NCBI GenBank assembly: GCA_012960535.1
Contig: DUBB01000019.1
Span: forward strand, 18,660 to 82,659
Reading direction: 5' to 3'
Length of the DNA stretch: 64,000 nt
DNA from: Gammaproteobacteria bacterium
GTDB lineage: Bacteria; Pseudomonadota; Gammaproteobacteria; Pseudomonadales; Azotimanducaceae
Part shown: piece after piece, positions 7,282 to 36,062 of the stretch
Position numbering within the stretch: the first letter of the stretch is position 1
How the letters are laid out: each line of letters opens with the position of its first letter
Notes under the pieces: generated by a model
Told to the model about the DNA's origin: nothing
What the model saw: only the letters and a program-made list of their open reading frames with translations
Databases searched by the model: none
Translations under genes and position numbers: made by a program

Positions 7282-8546
7282 CTACCCTGAGCCACCTTAT
7301 TCGGGTCTGCAGCGCCCGCTACAACAGAACGCCCAAGCGCAGGATAAACGGGAAGGTCCTTATCCGCTGGCATCTCCATAAACTGCTTCCGCTGCATGGC
7401 TGCCTCGATATAGGGTTTTAGTTCGGTATCTTTACGAGACTCCCGCTCTGCTTCCCGTGCCTTAAACTCAGGTAAAACCTCAGATGCAAACAATTCCAGT
7501 GATTCACAGATATGTTCATGTTTATTCATACCAGCCTGTTGAATAAAGGTCACCTGATCTACGCCAACATCTTCAAACTTGCGCAGGTGGTTTCTCATAT
7601 CGTCCGGCGTACCAATACCGCCTCTCTCCGCCGCTAGCGACTGAGTGATATCCAGCGGATTATCAAGTAGTCGCTTTTTATGGATTTTTCTGAATTCATC
7701 AAAAAGATTCATACGACCGGGGCGATGCTCGCCAAAGCCATATAGCGACCCCAGCGCATAACCAAAAAATTCAAAGCCTTCGAGTCCACGATCAATTGCA
7801 ACCTGACGATCCTGATGCAGGGAAAAGCTGGTGACCATGCAAATATTGGCATTAACATGGTGTCCGATGGGAACACATTCTTCGCTCTTGATAATGCTGT
7901 AATATTCGTCAACCCAGTGCCTTGCTTCCAGCGGGTCAACAAAGGCGAAGGTCAGAGCACCAATGCCCAGCCGGGCAGCCATTTTGATAGTCTCTCGATT
8001 TGAGCAGGCAACCCATACCGGTGGATGGGGTTTCTGCACTGGCTTGGGCACGATGTTACGACAGGGCATACTGAAATACTCGCCCTCATAACCAGGGTAG
8101 GGGTCCATCGCCAGCATGTTACAGATCTGTTCGGTGGCTTCCAGATACTGCGCTCTCTTACTGTCAACGGGAATTCCAAAACCACCTAGCTCAAGGATGG
8201 CCGAGGATTCACCGGTTCCAAATTCAACCCTTCCATTGGAGACTAGATCAAGGGTAGCAATACACTCAGCCGTTCGAGCAGGATGATTATAAGCACTGAT
8301 AACCTGCCGAATACCGTGCCCCAGGCGAATTCTTTTTGTCCGTTGTGAAGCCGCAGCCAGAAAAATTTCCGGTGCTGATGAGTGTGAATATTCTTCCAGA
8401 AAATGATGTTCTACTTCCCAGGCATAATCAATGCCAATGCGATCGGCCAGCTCAACCTGTTCCAAGGCATCTTGAAACAGCTTCTGTTCCAGCCCTTCAT
8501 CCCAGGGCTTAGGTAATTGATGTTCGTAAAAAATTCCAAATTTCAT
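7278..8546 (-). CDS. LLM-class flavin-dependent oxidoreductase (luciferase-like monooxygenase)
   Basis: Member of the bacterial-luciferase superfamily, FMN-dependent TIM-barrel monooxygenases. The N-terminus MKFGIFYEHQLP, the EVEHHF segment and RIRLGHGIRQVISAYNHPAR (residues about 75-95) followed by DLVSNGRVEFGTG are the standard barrel motifs. The ATG at 8546 has a perfect AGGAGG six bases upstream; the GTG one codon earlier is less likely. The C-terminal third (after about residue 350) is charged and variable. Substrate cannot be told from sequence. It is divergent from a short-chain dehydrogenase across a 0.5 kb control region, which hints at a shared oxidation pathway, but that is inference. 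Confidence 0.85.
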   Translation of the reverse strand: MKFGIFYEHQLPKPWDEGLEQKLFQDALEQVELADRIGIDYAWEVEHHFLEEYSHSSAPEIFLAAASQRTKRIRLGHGIRQVISAYNHPARTAECIATLDLVSNGRVEFGTGESSAILELGGFGIPVDSKRAQYLEATEQICNMLAMDPYPGYEGEYFSMPCRNIVPKPVQKPHPPVWVACSNRETIKMAARLGIGALTFAFVDPLEARHWVDEYYSIIKSEECVPIGHHVNANICMVTSFSLHQDRQVAIDRGLEGFEFFGYALGSLYGFGEHRPGRMNLFDEFRKIHKKRLLDNPLDITQSLAAERGGIGTPDDMRNHLRKFEDVGVDQVTFIQQAGMNKHEHICESLELFASEVLPEFKAREAERESRKDTELKPYIEAAMQRKQFMEMPADKDLPVYPALGRSVVAGAADPNKVAQGS

Positions 8547-31800: not shown

Positions 31801-32081
31801 CTTGTCATCCAATTAAAATTCCAATCAATAAACTAATTTTACCTGCGCTGTCTAACAAAGTTTCCCTCTACCAGTCCATCAAAATCAACCTAAGCAAGTG
31901 AGCAGAAAGCTGTTGCACCGTCGTCATCATGCCAATCTTGCAATTTTCTTTGCAACTTTCCTTGCTACCTTCCAATCACAATCTAACCACCACCTTTCCT
32001 GCGCACTGGCCGGGCGATGCGCTATTATAGCTAAATACTTCCCAAGTGACAGTTCAGGTTAAACAGATTTGTTCACAAAAC

Positions 32082-32693
32082 ATGATTGACTTCAGTAAAG
32101 CACAATTCCTGACCAGTGCATCACAGCTCCAGGGCTGCCCCATCGATGTGGGCACGGAAATAGCCTTCTGTGGTCGCTCTAATGCGGGCAAGTCCAGTGC
32201 CATCAATACCCTCACCAGGCAGAAAAAACTGGCTAGAACCAGTAAAACGCCAGGCCGAACGCAACTGATAAACTTTTTTTCGTTATCCGCGGATACCAGA
32301 CTGGTCGATCTCCCAGGGTTTGGCTACGCCAGAGTGCCCACCTCAATCAAACAGCATTGGCATAAACATCTCGATGAGTATCTGAGAGCTAGATTGTCGC
32401 TGCGCGGGCTTGTATTACTGATGGATATTCGCCATCCGCTCAAGCCTTTCGATGAAACCATGATAAATTGGTGTGCCGACGCTGCCTTACCTTTACATAT
32501 ACTGCTAACCAAAGCAGATAAACTCAAACGCGGTGCCCGACAGAACACCTTGTTAAGCCTTACCAGGTCATTACCAATTAATGTCACTGTACAAATTTTT
32601 TCGGCGCAGAATGGATTAGGACTCACCGAATTCGAAAATAAGCTCCAGACCTGGATGCACTCAGGTGTGTTAAGCGAAGAGAACGAATGCTGA
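32082..32693 (+). CDS. engB: Ribosome biogenesis GTPase EngB/YsxC
   Basis: Small essential GTPase for 50S assembly. G1 is GRSNAGKSS, the switch-I region is KTPGRTQLINFF, G3 DLPGFGYA, G4 LTKADKLKR, with FSAQNGLG as G5. The ATG at 32082 places G1 at about the same distance from the start as in E. coli (203 residues in all); a GTG at 32046 would add 12 residues. Neither has a good ribosome binding site. A TATTAT sits about 20 bases before the GTG. The engB-sRNA-polA arrangement corresponds to the Spot 42/ErsA locus of other gammaproteobacteria. Confidence 0.94.
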   Translation: MIDFSKAQFLTSASQLQGCPIDVGTEIAFCGRSNAGKSSAINTLTRQKKLARTSKTPGRTQLINFFSLSADTRLVDLPGFGYARVPTSIKQHWHKHLDEYLRARLSLRGLVLLMDIRHPLKPFDETMINWCADAALPLHILLTKADKLKRGARQNTLLSLTRSLPINVTVQIFSAQNGLGLTEFENKLQTWMHSGVLSEENEC

Positions 32694-32787
32694 AAAAAAG
32701 CCCCAGCCATAACGGGGATTATGACTGGGGCTGAGACTTCGGTAAATAGGGGAATAACCGAAGCTTACTGCCGAAACTTTATGCTGC
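32693..32787 (-). ncRNA. Tandem sRNA copy 1 (ErsA/Spot 42-locus small RNA)
   Basis: Predicted ~95-nt RNA on the minus strand. After a sigma-E-type promoter come a single-stranded start, a hairpin CUUCGGU...ACCGAAG (32737-32763) with the loop UAUUCCCCUAUUU, and a 14-bp terminator hairpin (32699-32732) whose six-base loop is UCCCCG, ending in seven Us directly after the engB stop. The 29 bases at 32749-32777 are identical to 33245-33273 in copy 2. All differences between the copies in the two stems (C-G to U-G, A-U to G-U, U-G to C-G, U-A to U-G) keep pairing. ErsA of Pseudomonas lies between the same two genes and depends on AlgU; homology is likely by position and promoter but not shown by sequence. 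Confidence 0.8.
32694..32732 (-). terminator. Intrinsic terminator of sRNA copy 1
   Basis: On the minus strand a 14-bp stem (one G-U) with loop UCCCCG is followed by seven Us. It reaches the engB stop codon, so it also ends anything transcribed through from polA. Confidence 0.92.
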
Positions 32788-32792
32788 TTACT

Positions 32793-32821
32793 TTACGACT
32801 ATAAGCCTTACAAAAAGTTCC
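32793..32821 (-). promoter_or_regulatory. Sigma-E/AlgU-type promoter of sRNA copy 1
   Basis: -35 GGAACTT (32815-32821) and -10 TCGTAA (32793-32798) are separated by 16 bases, matching the GAACTT-N16-TCTGA pattern recognised by RpoE/AlgU. Confidence 0.65.
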
Positions 32822-33188
32822 AAATGATTTATTAAATTATCCTATGTGCACGCCATCGTTCTCTCTTGTGATAGACCCGAGCAGCTTTGGATGAATAAAC
32901 AGGATTCTCCTGGAACCTGAATTAATCTTCCTGATTACAAAAAATAACCTAATAACAATATGATAGAAAGTACAATATTAATCTGAAATTTACAACTGGA
33001 TAAACAAAAAAATCATACCAGCAATAAGATGTTGCTTTTTAGAGCTAGGCATAGGTGTTAATAAATACCCTCTATGATATTAAATTTCTCGCTCCTGAGA
33101 AATCCTCTTATCCAGGAATGGGCTGTCTGGAAGACAATTTCGAATATCGGATCAGGTGCTGGCTGGCAAAGGCTTACTGACCTAAAAT
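32822..33188. other. Spacer between the two sRNA copies
   Basis: About 360 AT-rich bases with no gene. Apart from a small inverted repeat TTTCTC-N6-GAGAAA (33085-33102) I see nothing that matches the two RNA copies. Confidence 0.5.
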
Positions 33189-33228
33189 AAAAAAAGCCCC
33201 AGCCATAACGGGGATTATGGCCGGAGCT
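33189..33228 (-). terminator. Intrinsic terminator of sRNA copy 2
   Basis: Fourteen-bp stem with two G-U pairs, loop UCCCCG, then UUUUUU on the minus strand. It also serves polA, whose stop lies about 110 bases upstream. Confidence 0.9.
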
Positions 33229-33284
33229 GGGACTTCGGCCAATTGGGGAATAACCGAAGCTTACTGCCGAAACATTGTTTTACC
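33189..33284 (-). ncRNA. Tandem sRNA copy 2 (polA-proximal)
   Basis: Predicted ~96-nt RNA with the same design as copy 1: hairpin CUUCGGUUA...UGGCCGAAG (33233-33259, nine pairs) with the loop UUCCCCAAU, then a 14-bp terminator stem (33195-33228) with loop UCCCCG and a U run. Compared with copy 1, stem differences are all compensated or wobble pairs while the UCCCC loops are unchanged. The RNA begins about 50 bases after the polA stop. C-rich loops of this kind pair with Shine-Dalgarno sequences in several known sRNA families (for example the sibling RNAs of Neisseria), so translational repression is the natural prediction. Confidence 0.8.
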
Positions 33285-33289
33285 CTATG

Positions 33290-33317
33290 TCAGACATAAA
33301 GTCTGACAGAAAGTTCC
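33290..33317 (-). promoter_or_regulatory. Sigma-E/AlgU-type promoter of sRNA copy 2
   Basis: -35 GGAACTT (33311-33317), 16-base spacer, -10 TCTGA (33290-33294): a perfect match to the AlgU pattern GAACTT-N16/17-TCTGA. A perfect inverted repeat TGTCAGAC-N5-GTCTGACA (33288-33308) overlaps the spacer and -10 and is absent from copy 1, so copy 2 may have an extra operator. Confidence 0.75.
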
Positions 33318-33338
33318 CTATGATAAATAATTATAGGG

Positions 33339-36026
33339 TTAGTGGGCTTCCTCCCAGTCTTTACCGACGCCGACTTCAACCTCCAGAGGAATAGTTAAAT
33401 CTGCTGCCGAAACCATATGCTGCAGCAGGCCCGCTTTAACCTCCTCAAGTTCCGCTTCAACAACTTCCAGAACTAATTCATCATGCACCTGCATAATCAT
33501 TTTTGATCTCAGCTGGGATTCCTGTAACCAGTTTTGCACCTGGATCATGGCAAGTTTTATGATATCTGCTGCAGTACCTTGCATCGGTGCATTAATGGCA
33601 GTCCTCTCGGCTGCCTGGCGCAACTGAAAATTAGTCGAATTTATAGCTGGCAGGTAGAGCCGCCGACCGAAATGAGTTTCCACATACCCCAGACTAGCTG
33701 CCTGCTTTTTGATAGCATCCATATAATCCCTGACGCCGGGATAGCGTTCAAAATAAAGGTTAATATAATCCTGGGCATCGCCGCGACTGATCCCCAACTG
33801 TCGTGCTAAACCAAAAGCAGACATGCCATAGATCAGGCCAAAATTAATTGCCTTGGCACTGCGTCGCTGGTCCATACTGACCTGTTCCAGTGAACAGCCA
33901 AACACTTCTGCCGCTGTGGCTTTATGGATATCCAGACCCTTTTTGAATGCCTGGGTTAATCCTGAATCTGAGGACAGATGCGCCATAATTCTTAACTCAA
34001 TCTGTGAGTAATCTGCTGCGACCAACAAATATCCAGGATTAGCAACAAATGCCTTGCGGATTCGACGACCCTGCTCTGTTCTTATGGGAATGTTCTGCAG
34101 ATTAGGATCGCTACTGGATAACCTGCCAGTAGCCGCCACCGCCTGATGATAGGAGGTGTGAACCCGCCCTGTAGTAGTATTAATCTGCTTAGGCAATTGA
34201 TCAGTATAGGTTGATTTGAGCTTGCTTAAACCTCTGTAAGCTATAATCAGTTTAGGTAATGGATAATCCAATGCTAATTCCTGGAGCACCGCTTCGGCAG
34301 TAGAAGGCTGACCTTTCGGTGTTTTCTTTAGAATGGGCAGTTTTAATTTTTCGTAAAATATCTGCTGCAGTTGTTTCGGGGAACCTAAATTGAACGTTTC
34401 ACCCGCCAGGTCGAATGCTTCGGCTTCCAATTCAGTCAACCTTAGTGCTATTTCCTGGCTCTGTTTATGGAGCATCTCGGCATCAACAAGAACACCCGTT
34501 CGTTCAACGGTGGATAAAATAGGCACCAGCGGCATTTCTATATCCAGAAACACACTCATCAGTTGATTGGTTTGGCGCAATTCCGGCCACAGCGTTTCGT
34601 GAAGTTGCAAGGTTATATCTGCATCCTCAGCAGCATAGTCAGCAGCGACCTCGACCGATATCTGATTGAAGGTTAATTGCTTAGCGCCCTTACCAGCAAT
34701 ATCTGTGAAATGGGTGGTCTTCCTGCGCAGATAATTCGCTGCTAAATCATCCATATTGTGTCTGGAAAAAACTGAGTTCAGAACATAGGATTCCAACATG
34801 GTATCGTGAACTTGGGCCCTAACCTCAACGCCATAGCGTGCCAGCACACTCATATCAAACTTAAAATTCTGGCCAATTATCCATTTCTGCTCATTACCCA
34901 GAAGTTCCTTTATAGCTGGTATCACAATAGCTAAAGGCAGCTGCTTGGGCGCACCCAGATAATCATGGCCTATTGGCAGATAAGCAGCTTCACCGGGTTT
35001 GCAACAAAACGAGATGCCGACCAGTTCAGCATTGATGTAATCTAGGCCGGTTGTTTCCGTATCAAATGAAAAATATGGGGCAGCGTTAAGCTTATTGAGC
35101 CAGGCTTTAAAATGGACTTCATCTAATATCACCTCATAGTGAGCAACCGGTACGGGTGCCATAACCGTTGCCGGGCTGCCGAGTTCTTCCAGCCAACCTG
35201 CAAACTCATACTCAAGGTAGTATTTCTGTAAGCCCTCAAGGTCTCGATCGGCCTGCTCTAACTCATCTATTTTCTTTGGCAATTCGAGGTGCTGGCGGAT
35301 CGTTGCCAGGTCGTAAGACATGGGTAAAAACTCTAAAGAGGCGCGAAGGTTTTCACCGACCTTACCTTTCACCTGATCCGCATTAGCCATCACGCCTGTT
35401 AAAGAATCAAATTCGGTCAACCATTTAACAGCCGTCTTTGGTCCACATTTTGGAACTCCTGGGATGTTATCAGAGGTGTCTCCCATGAGTGCCAGATAAT
35501 CAATGATCTGGTCCGGATTGACGCCGAATTTCTCTTTAACGCCATCCACATCCATATACTGTCCATTCATGGTATTGATCAGCACAATCTGATCATTAAC
35601 CAATTGCGCCATATCCTTATCCCCTGTTGAAATCAGGGTGCGCTTACCGGCGTCATCGAGCTGTCTTGCAAGCGTGCCAATGACATCATCTGCCTCAACC
35701 CCTTCAACGCATAACAAAGGTATTCCCAGGCATTCTACAATGCGATGAATCGGTTCAATCTGGCTACGTAACTCCTCAGGCATGGGCGGCCTGTTCGCTT
35801 TATAGTCCGTGTATATATCGTTCCTAAACGTTTTTCCCTTGGCATCAAATATAACGATTAACTGACTCTCGTAAAATTCTGCCTGCAGCTTTCGAATCAT
35901 GCTGATAACACCTTTTATGGCACCGGTCGCCTGGCCTTTTGAATTCTCCAGCGGTGGTAGTGCATGAAAGGCACGAAAAAGGTAGGATGAGCCATCCACC
36001 AGGATAACTTGGAAATCATTATTCAT
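33339..36026 (-). CDS. polA: DNA polymerase I
   Basis: Repair and Okazaki-fragment polymerase with three domains. The 5'-3' exonuclease domain (residues 1-290) has VDGSSYLFRAFHALP, GVEADDVIGTLA and GDTSDNIPGVP. The 3'-5' exonuclease shows FDTETTGLDY, so proofreading should be active. The polymerase domain has DYSQIELRIMAHLS (motif A), RRSAKAINFGLIYGMSAFGLA (motif B, shortened here) and MQVHDELVLEV (motif C). Length 895 from the ATG at 36026; a TTG two codons earlier is the alternative. Its start faces the DUF2782 gene, and its 3' side holds the tandem sRNAs. Confidence 0.97.
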   Translation of the reverse strand: MNNDFQVILVDGSSYLFRAFHALPPLENSKGQATGAIKGVISMIRKLQAEFYESQLIVIFDAKGKTFRNDIYTDYKANRPPMPEELRSQIEPIHRIVECLGIPLLCVEGVEADDVIGTLARQLDDAGKRTLISTGDKDMAQLVNDQIVLINTMNGQYMDVDGVKEKFGVNPDQIIDYLALMGDTSDNIPGVPKCGPKTAVKWLTEFDSLTGVMANADQVKGKVGENLRASLEFLPMSYDLATIRQHLELPKKIDELEQADRDLEGLQKYYLEYEFAGWLEELGSPATVMAPVPVAHYEVILDEVHFKAWLNKLNAAPYFSFDTETTGLDYINAELVGISFCCKPGEAAYLPIGHDYLGAPKQLPLAIVIPAIKELLGNEQKWIIGQNFKFDMSVLARYGVEVRAQVHDTMLESYVLNSVFSRHNMDDLAANYLRRKTTHFTDIAGKGAKQLTFNQISVEVAADYAAEDADITLQLHETLWPELRQTNQLMSVFLDIEMPLVPILSTVERTGVLVDAEMLHKQSQEIALRLTELEAEAFDLAGETFNLGSPKQLQQIFYEKLKLPILKKTPKGQPSTAEAVLQELALDYPLPKLIIAYRGLSKLKSTYTDQLPKQINTTTGRVHTSYHQAVAATGRLSSSDPNLQNIPIRTEQGRRIRKAFVANPGYLLVAADYSQIELRIMAHLSSDSGLTQAFKKGLDIHKATAAEVFGCSLEQVSMDQRRSAKAINFGLIYGMSAFGLARQLGISRGDAQDYINLYFERYPGVRDYMDAIKKQAASLGYVETHFGRRLYLPAINSTNFQLRQAAERTAINAPMQGTAADIIKLAMIQVQNWLQESQLRSKMIMQVHDELVLEVVEAELEEVKAGLLQHMVSAADLTIPLEVEVGVGKDWEEAH

Positions 36027-36062
36027 TGGCAATTTTTCCCTGGTTTAAGAGCAAACCATACT

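Follow-up and report, generated by a model that had tools for sequence, protein, structure and literature searches.

A tandem pair of candidate ErsA-like small RNA genes with sigma-E-type promoter elements between polA and engB

In the stretch of gammaproteobacterial DNA analysed here (64,000 nucleotides, called the window below), two similar minus-strand units stand in tandem between polA and the convergent engB. We consider it likely that they are two sibling genes for trans-acting sRNAs of the ErsA type, born by duplication and each equipped with its own sigma-E promoter and terminator, whose RNAs would be induced by sigma-E and would repress mRNAs. At the level of the sequence, this reading is supported by the two copies, their structures, their promoter elements, the locus, their conservation and their duplication. 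The features are as follows:

32046..32693, plus strand: engB/yihA-type GTPase gene, convergent (Pfam MMR_HSR1, 64 bits)
32693..32786, minus strand: putative sRNA L, engB-proximal, about 94 nt (repeat and fold; predicted 5' end)
32699..32732, minus strand: terminator hairpin of sRNA L, 15 bp, loop CCCC (fold)
32736..32764, minus strand: hairpin 1 of sRNA L, CCCC within the loop (fold)
32749..32777, minus strand: 29 nt identical in both copies, copy L (read directly from the sequence)
32794..32799, minus strand: -10 element GTCGTA of the engB-proximal copy (sequence)
32815..32821, minus strand: -35 element GGAACTT of the engB-proximal copy (sequence)
32829..33188, no strand: 360-nt spacer between the repeats (repeat boundaries)
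33189..33283, minus strand: putative sRNA R, polA-proximal, about 95 nt (repeat and fold; 5' end predicted from the -10 position)
33195..33228, minus strand: terminator hairpin of sRNA R, 15 bp, loop CCCC, followed by a U run (fold)
33232..33260, minus strand: hairpin 1 of sRNA R, loop UUCCCCAAU (fold)
33245..33273, minus strand: 29 nt identical in both copies, copy R (unpaired 5' segment into loop 1)
33290..33295, minus strand: -10 element GTCTGA of the polA-proximal copy (spacing equal to that of the other copy and of the element upstream of rpoE)
33311..33317, minus strand: -35 element GGAACTT of the polA-proximal copy (sequence; pattern enriched on the polA strand)
33339..36032, minus strand: polA (DNA polymerase I), upstream of the sRNAs on the same strand (Pfam DNA_pol_A, 552 bits, and exonuclease domains)

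The units are direct repeats of 136 nt (32693-32828 and 33189-33324) with 80% identity, which confirms the two-copy minus-strand tandem put forward in the original prediction. The assignment of the locus to polA and engB also holds, by the Pfam domains of the two flanking genes; the name engB for the GTPase gene is one that we presume from that prediction and from the literature, and engB matches adjoin polA in relatives too. The separation of a third of a kilobase is measured as 360 nt, and the 29 bases said to be shared are present without a difference. Aligned as units, the two copies score 134, with 79 of 87 positions identical, compared with a top score of 45 among 2640 cross-family pairs of terminator units. 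The hairpins could have turned out to be scattered genomic repeats, but a DNA search and a covariance model built from the window's genus only (called R1) both find two copies in the whole genome. While the units align between the window's genome (G000) and its genus-mate G013, the window spacer has no blastn match at E 1e-3 in the intergenic region of G013. A likeness of 18 out of 20 nt between the 3' coding end of polA (33404-33423) and the 5' part of sRNA L (32768-32787) is probably due to chance, because by eye the polA ends of G012, G008, G002 and G001 are without it.

Both units fold into a hairpin followed by a terminator, as had been proposed, although the terminator helix has 15 bp instead of 14. 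In sRNA L, the U run of the terminator abuts the engB stop codon. The 111-nt stretches have fold stabilities of z -6.3 and -4.2, and in each case none of 200 dinucleotide shuffles is as stable. It had further been claimed that every stem difference between the copies keeps pairing and that this is strong internal evidence for structure. Over the 72 positions that lead from hairpin 1 into the T run, seven differences separate the copies, and five fall in stems. Four of these preserve pairing (UG/UA, UG/CG, GU/AU and CG/UG), but the fifth, UG/UU near the loop end of hairpin 1, breaks the pair. Since all the stem differences are one-sided changes, the evidence for structure inside the window is weaker than first claimed.

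Across 18 aligned copies from the genus, the evidence for structure is strong. Here, 98.3% of the pair cells are paired and two-sided changes occur at 7 of 20 pairs, and none of 500 shuffles is as high on either measure, the structure under test being the consensus of the same alignment, which favours it. When the partners are slid by 1-3 columns, 34 to 53% of the cells pair. All seven two-sided pairs fall in the terminator helix. Hairpin 1 shows no two-sided covariation among the 18 copies because it hardly varies, and its structure therefore rests on folding and sequence conservation. The CCC of loop 1 is kept in 18/18 copies, while the terminator loop varies.

GGAACTT-N15-GTC, which we take to be a form of the sigma-E consensus, stands ahead of both copies (33317-33293 and 32821-32797); these sigma-E-type promoters were absent from the original prediction. 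Of 105 convergent polA-engB intervals with lengths of 60-1300 nt, many of which come from near relatives and are thus not independent, 36 carry the related pattern GGAACT-N16-GTC on the strand of polA (46 sites in total) and 2 carry it on the opposite strand, compared with a mean of 0.1 and a maximum of 1 in dinucleotide shuffles. For spacings of 12 to 21, the numbers of sites in these intervals are 1, 2, 2, 1, 46, 5, 1, 0, 0 and 0. In the window alone, two pattern matches are only moderately rare, as two are reached by 4 of 100 shuffles. In the whole genome of 4.24 Mb, GGAACTT-N15-GTC has four occurrences, two of which are those at the copies, while the reversed control has 20, as if the element were avoided elsewhere. 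One of the other two sites lies within an ORF and one directly after an ORF that we presume to be ftsW-like.

The genome encodes an RpoE equivalog (285 bits, over the cut-off), with a MucB/RseB protein and a trypsin-PDZ (DegP-like) protease adjoining it and, downstream of rpoE, a 220-aa ORF that matches no Pfam family and stands where the anti-sigma factor would be expected. Upstream of rpoE itself, a promoter-like TGAACTT-N15-GTCAGA can be recognised by eye. Hfq is encoded as well (92 bits over cut-off). A sigma-70-type scan of the region gave six sites, compared with 1.4 expected, and none of the six is placed to start either RNA at its predicted site. In the regions of family f21, a GAACT element and a TCAGA-like or GTCATA box were found by eye upstream at nearly the same spacing. 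At four loci of family f39 (L124, L125, L128 and L129), C-loop RNAs matched by R1 appear, by eye, to have a TATAGT-like box upstream that replaces the sigma-E element, which suggests that the promoter class has changed there.

The original prediction had linked the locus to Spot 42 and ErsA, and here the comparison with known families gives a divided answer. At gathering scores, Rfam finds no family in the window; over 80 named polA loci, 14 have a match, in all cases to tRNA. Under permissive settings, the ErsA model RF01719 (Pseudomon-1) is the best Rfam match in the window by E-value, with 26.6 bits for sRNA L (E 0.0059 over 4227 families) and 15.7 bits for sRNA R, both short of its gathering score of 50 bits. 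The sX13 model RF02232 gives 24.8 bits for sRNA R (E 0.018; cut-off 50), and the Spot 42 model RF00021 gives a poor 17.0 and 15.8 bits (gathering score 80). The resemblance to ErsA thus stands, but identity with either family does not. In whole-genome searches at E 0.01 with stricter filters, RF01719 has no match in the window's genome or in genus-mate G010, and over 390 genomes of the order it matched 33, 17 of them above its cut-off.

In the opposite direction, every one of the 13 f21 loci (12 fetched by RF01719 and one by PolA) has an R1 match at the ErsA position, with E values from 0.0014 to 0.098 in ten and of 0.36 in the remaining three, where part of ErsA is covered. The covariance-model search that had been suggested as a check thus yields weak matches with ErsA in both directions, but RF01719 misses the window's genome at genome scale. 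At loci of other families, R1 has a match up to E 5 in 28 of 34, the six without one being L154, L162 (tandem, f8), L270, L261, L220 and L269. Over the 390 genomes of the order it matched 17, two of them in the window's genus; among the 15 loci outside the genus, eight have polA and/or engB in the 1.5-kb flanks and seven do not, and at least three of these seven resemble plain terminators. In nine of the 80 named polA loci, R1 has one match each with E up to 5, the best being L058 (38.2 bits) and L015 (33.1 bits). The match in L058, a Gammaproteobacteria MAG, lies at 7822-7914 on the minus strand, about 1.1 kb downstream of polA and on the opposite strand to it.

The excerpts available from the literature place ErsA between polA and engB and give it a U-rich unstructured domain between its stem-loops (PMC8575079), with strictly sigma22-dependent expression (PMC7565897). 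The window pair shares with the Pseudomonas RNA the polA-engB site, the polA strand and direction, an envelope-stress sigma promoter of the sigma-E type as far as sequence elements tell, a C-rich terminator loop and a GGCAG motif before the C-loop hairpin. In an alignment by eye, the RNAs picked from f21, f8 and f35 have GTGTTWAGTGTTGGCA before this hairpin, and the window has GTTTCGGCAG. Unlike ErsA, which is a single unit in 13 f21 regions, the window has a tandem, and the U-rich stretch between the stem-loops is reduced in its copies. We therefore describe the pair as ErsA-like by locus, promoter type and architecture, and probably orthologous to ErsA, while by the family's curated test it is not a member: the scores are below the Rfam cut-off, the model misses the pair at genome scale and the U-rich stretch is reduced.

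Spot 42 is similar in its position relative to polA and yihA/engB and, according to the excerpt at hand, is repressed by cAMP in A. salmonicida (PMC3295665), in contrast to the sigma-E-type promoter of the window. The sX13 RNA of Xanthomonas is described, in the part of its report drawn on here, as adjoining polA and as repressing through C-rich loops mRNAs that bear G-rich motifs, and its authors mention C-rich loops in further polA-locus RNAs (PMC3771888). The window copies resemble it in both position and loops; however, sX13 has three stem-loops, whereas they have two main hairpins.

Fifteen genomes of the window's genus were surveyed. A complete tandem pair is present in seven (G000, G011, G013, G010, G004, G012 and G002), and four (G014, G003, G006 and G007) have a single copy in an interval that reaches engB. 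The remaining four are uncounted: the contig ends after copy 1 in G001 and G008 and within polA in G005, and in G009 only the engB-proximal copy is on the contig. In the DNA search of the genus, 12 of 12 matches lie beside polA and/or engB.

The wider survey covered the polA-downstream regions of 190 genomes, a biased set in which 71 come from the window's family, some were fetched via model matches and the order search contributed only its listed places. Tandem units, called by similarity, occur in 16 of these 190 genomes, so that the tandem is not unique to the window. Beyond the genus, the window's family has tandem units in two other genera, with three units in G430 and a tandem in G438. 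Other families contribute four of eight genomes in f8 (G195, G217, G238 and G257), two of five in f41 (G112 and G167) and one of seven in f43 (G142, 139 nt at 76% by self-BLAST), while f21 has a single unit in all 13 regions. The G217 interval holds three exact promoter elements, its third unit being below the similarity listing. The f41 units look different, being without the exact sigma-E element and, in G112 and G167, without a C-rich terminator loop, so that they are at most tentative relatives of the window pair. In this family, 2-3 highly similar terminator units lie downstream of polA (L295 of G167 and L275 of G112), and units 2 and 3 of G167 are identical at 116 of 120 positions. The tandem calls rest on the similarity of non-overlapping units and on self-BLAST, because an automatic unit counter makes mistakes: it gives a false second unit in G008 and extra ones in G119, G140 and G213, and it misses G142. 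Rows with overlapping segments (G006, G203, G226, G188, G120 and some of G195 and G112) were set aside.

As to the origin of the pair, a PolA tree from a quick search places G000, G011 and G013 in one clade (A), with the rest separate; within this rest, the single-copy lineages (G006 and G003; G014 and G007) branch before a tandem clade B. A DNA tree built from 21 copies puts the seven from clade A, that of G009 included, in one group with a support of 99/100, and most other branches are without resolution. A single ancestral copy 1 common to clades A and B is rejected (p-AU 4.3e-5), and so is a single ancestral copy 2 (p-AU 3.4e-6). Because common descent of the pair in the two clades is rejected, either the duplication took place separately in A and B, or the copies were homogenised by gene conversion, which would give the same picture.

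The G012 spacer contains a relic of the polA 3' end, from -89 to +8 around the stop codon, with a score of 74 compared with a maximum of 27 in 500 shuffles. This is as expected if it is the footprint of a duplicated segment that started inside polA. Eleven intervals were tested, and the other ten contain no clear polA relic; short non-polA matches in G217 and G238 were equalled by 19 and 10 of 500 shuffles, respectively. In one sub-clade, an array of a unit of about 22 nt with the core AAGCCCTTAGCG lies beside the sRNA copies, downstream of copy 1 (L105:833-1144 in G004, with 13.6 copies, and also in G002, G001 and G010). In G001 (C207) and G004 (C105), the same core is also present in stretches that hold neither polA nor engB. 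This short inter-copy repeat was considered as a part of the system and rejected, as it also sits at other places.

It is important to weigh this picture against other explanations of the same locus. It is unlikely, in our judgement, that one copy works as an sRNA and the other is a decaying duplicate. Decay of one copy does occur: two of the seven tandem genomes have one copy without its -35 element, namely copy 2 in G013, where AGAATT replaces GGAACT, and copy 1 in G012, whose copy 2 has a disturbed terminator, and 4 of the 11 genus genomes with a complete interval have a single copy. However, in the other five tandem genomes (G000, G011, G010, G004 and G002) neither copy has lost its exact sigma-E-type elements, their spacing, the C-rich loop 1 or its strong terminator. 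Moreover, over 132 nt the second copy of G010 is 90% identical to that of G004, whereas in the G010 spacer of about 290 nt only the first 110 nt or so align with G004, short repeat aside.

We find it a good deal less probable that the units are mainly 3' ends, that is, that they provide the terminator of the polA mRNA and that the RNAs are processing products of its 3'UTR or plain terminators. The -35 element of the polA-proximal unit starts 21 nt past the polA stop codon and the unit closes with a strong terminator, and some model matches elsewhere in the order do resemble plain terminators. However, a widely conserved promoter element stands ahead of each unit, the ending of polA transcripts needs no second unit, and the CUUCGGU and CCC loop upstream of the terminator are more invariant than the terminator itself. 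Several short polA-engB intervals, for example of 9 nt in f9 and of 24 and 49 nt in f2, are also without a detected terminator. Mobile or dispersed repeats of the REP kind that lie at this locus by happenstance are hardly credible: in some relatives the copies do have a dispersed short repeat between them, but the units themselves number only two genome-wide, which contradicts a dispersed repeat, and their matches in the genus are confined to the surroundings of polA and engB.

We return to the reading as two sibling sRNA genes and to how they might act; transcription, sigma-E control, start sites, Hfq binding, targets and division of labour are what we infer here. A separate sigma-E (RpoE/AlgU) promoter would drive each copy and a separate intrinsic terminator would close it, so that two RNAs of about 95 nt result; envelope stress, by freeing RpoE, would lead to both being made. 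Each RNA is predicted to have a single-stranded 5' segment GUUUCGGCAG, a hairpin 1 with the loop UUCCCC and a U-tailed terminator. The 5' segment and the C-rich loop could pair with G-rich ribosome-binding regions of mRNAs and thereby lower translation, a step modelled on the C-loop RNA sX13 from the polA locus of Xanthomonas. Hfq would perhaps assist the pairing. By analogy its use is plausible but uncertain, because in the excerpted reports sX13 works without Hfq (PMC3771888) and Hfq is dispensable for the action of ErsA on amrZ, while ErsA requires it on anr (PMC8575079).

The pair would have been born by tandem duplication of promoter, RNA and terminator together. The shared core would then give shared targets and a higher dose, while the diverged first ten or so nucleotides and the promoter spacers would allow the copies to differ in timing or to have targets of their own. 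The second copy would probably add dose and partial specialisation.

The original prediction had called a tandem sibling pair at this locus a new architecture. The sibling pair stands, with two homologous adjacent genes that each have a putative promoter and terminator, but the novelty does not hold in this general form, since tandem sibling sRNAs are established. OmrA/OmrB and PrrF1/PrrF2, in the part of the source used here, are likewise neighbouring homologous sRNA genes whose sequences are in part common to both and in part private (PMC4211561), although they are found at other loci and under other regulators (EnvZ/OmpR and iron). Two sRNA genes in one polA-downstream intergenic region also have a precedent in the Vibrionaceae, where VSsrna24 lies in the Spot 42 intergenic region; it is, however, a different sRNA of about 60 nt with expression opposite to that of Spot 42, and the excerpt does not describe it as a Spot 42 copy (PMC3295665). 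A literature search over titles and abstract openings, with subscription papers mostly outside its scope, found no report of ErsA-type copies that stand in tandem at polA, each with a sigma-E-type promoter of its own. What appears to be new is thus an ErsA-type tandem at polA that recurs over lineages.

On a wider interpretation our opinion is evenly divided: the polA-engB interval may be a recurrent nursery in which an ErsA-type, sigma-E-driven gene has been duplicated in place in several lineages, the window pair being one of several parallel cases of dosage and subfunctionalisation. If this were true, doublets and triplets would keep the promoter, the C-loop and the terminator, while their 5' ends and spacers diverge. 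Sibling sRNAs are common, and it is seldom clear whether they were duplicated for dose, timing or new targets. Among relatives, this one locus occurs with one, two or three copies, many of them behind a recognisable promoter and some visibly decayed, which opens the question of duplication to comparison. The results also suggest that the curated Rfam model captures only part of the ErsA-like sRNAs linked to envelope stress at polA.
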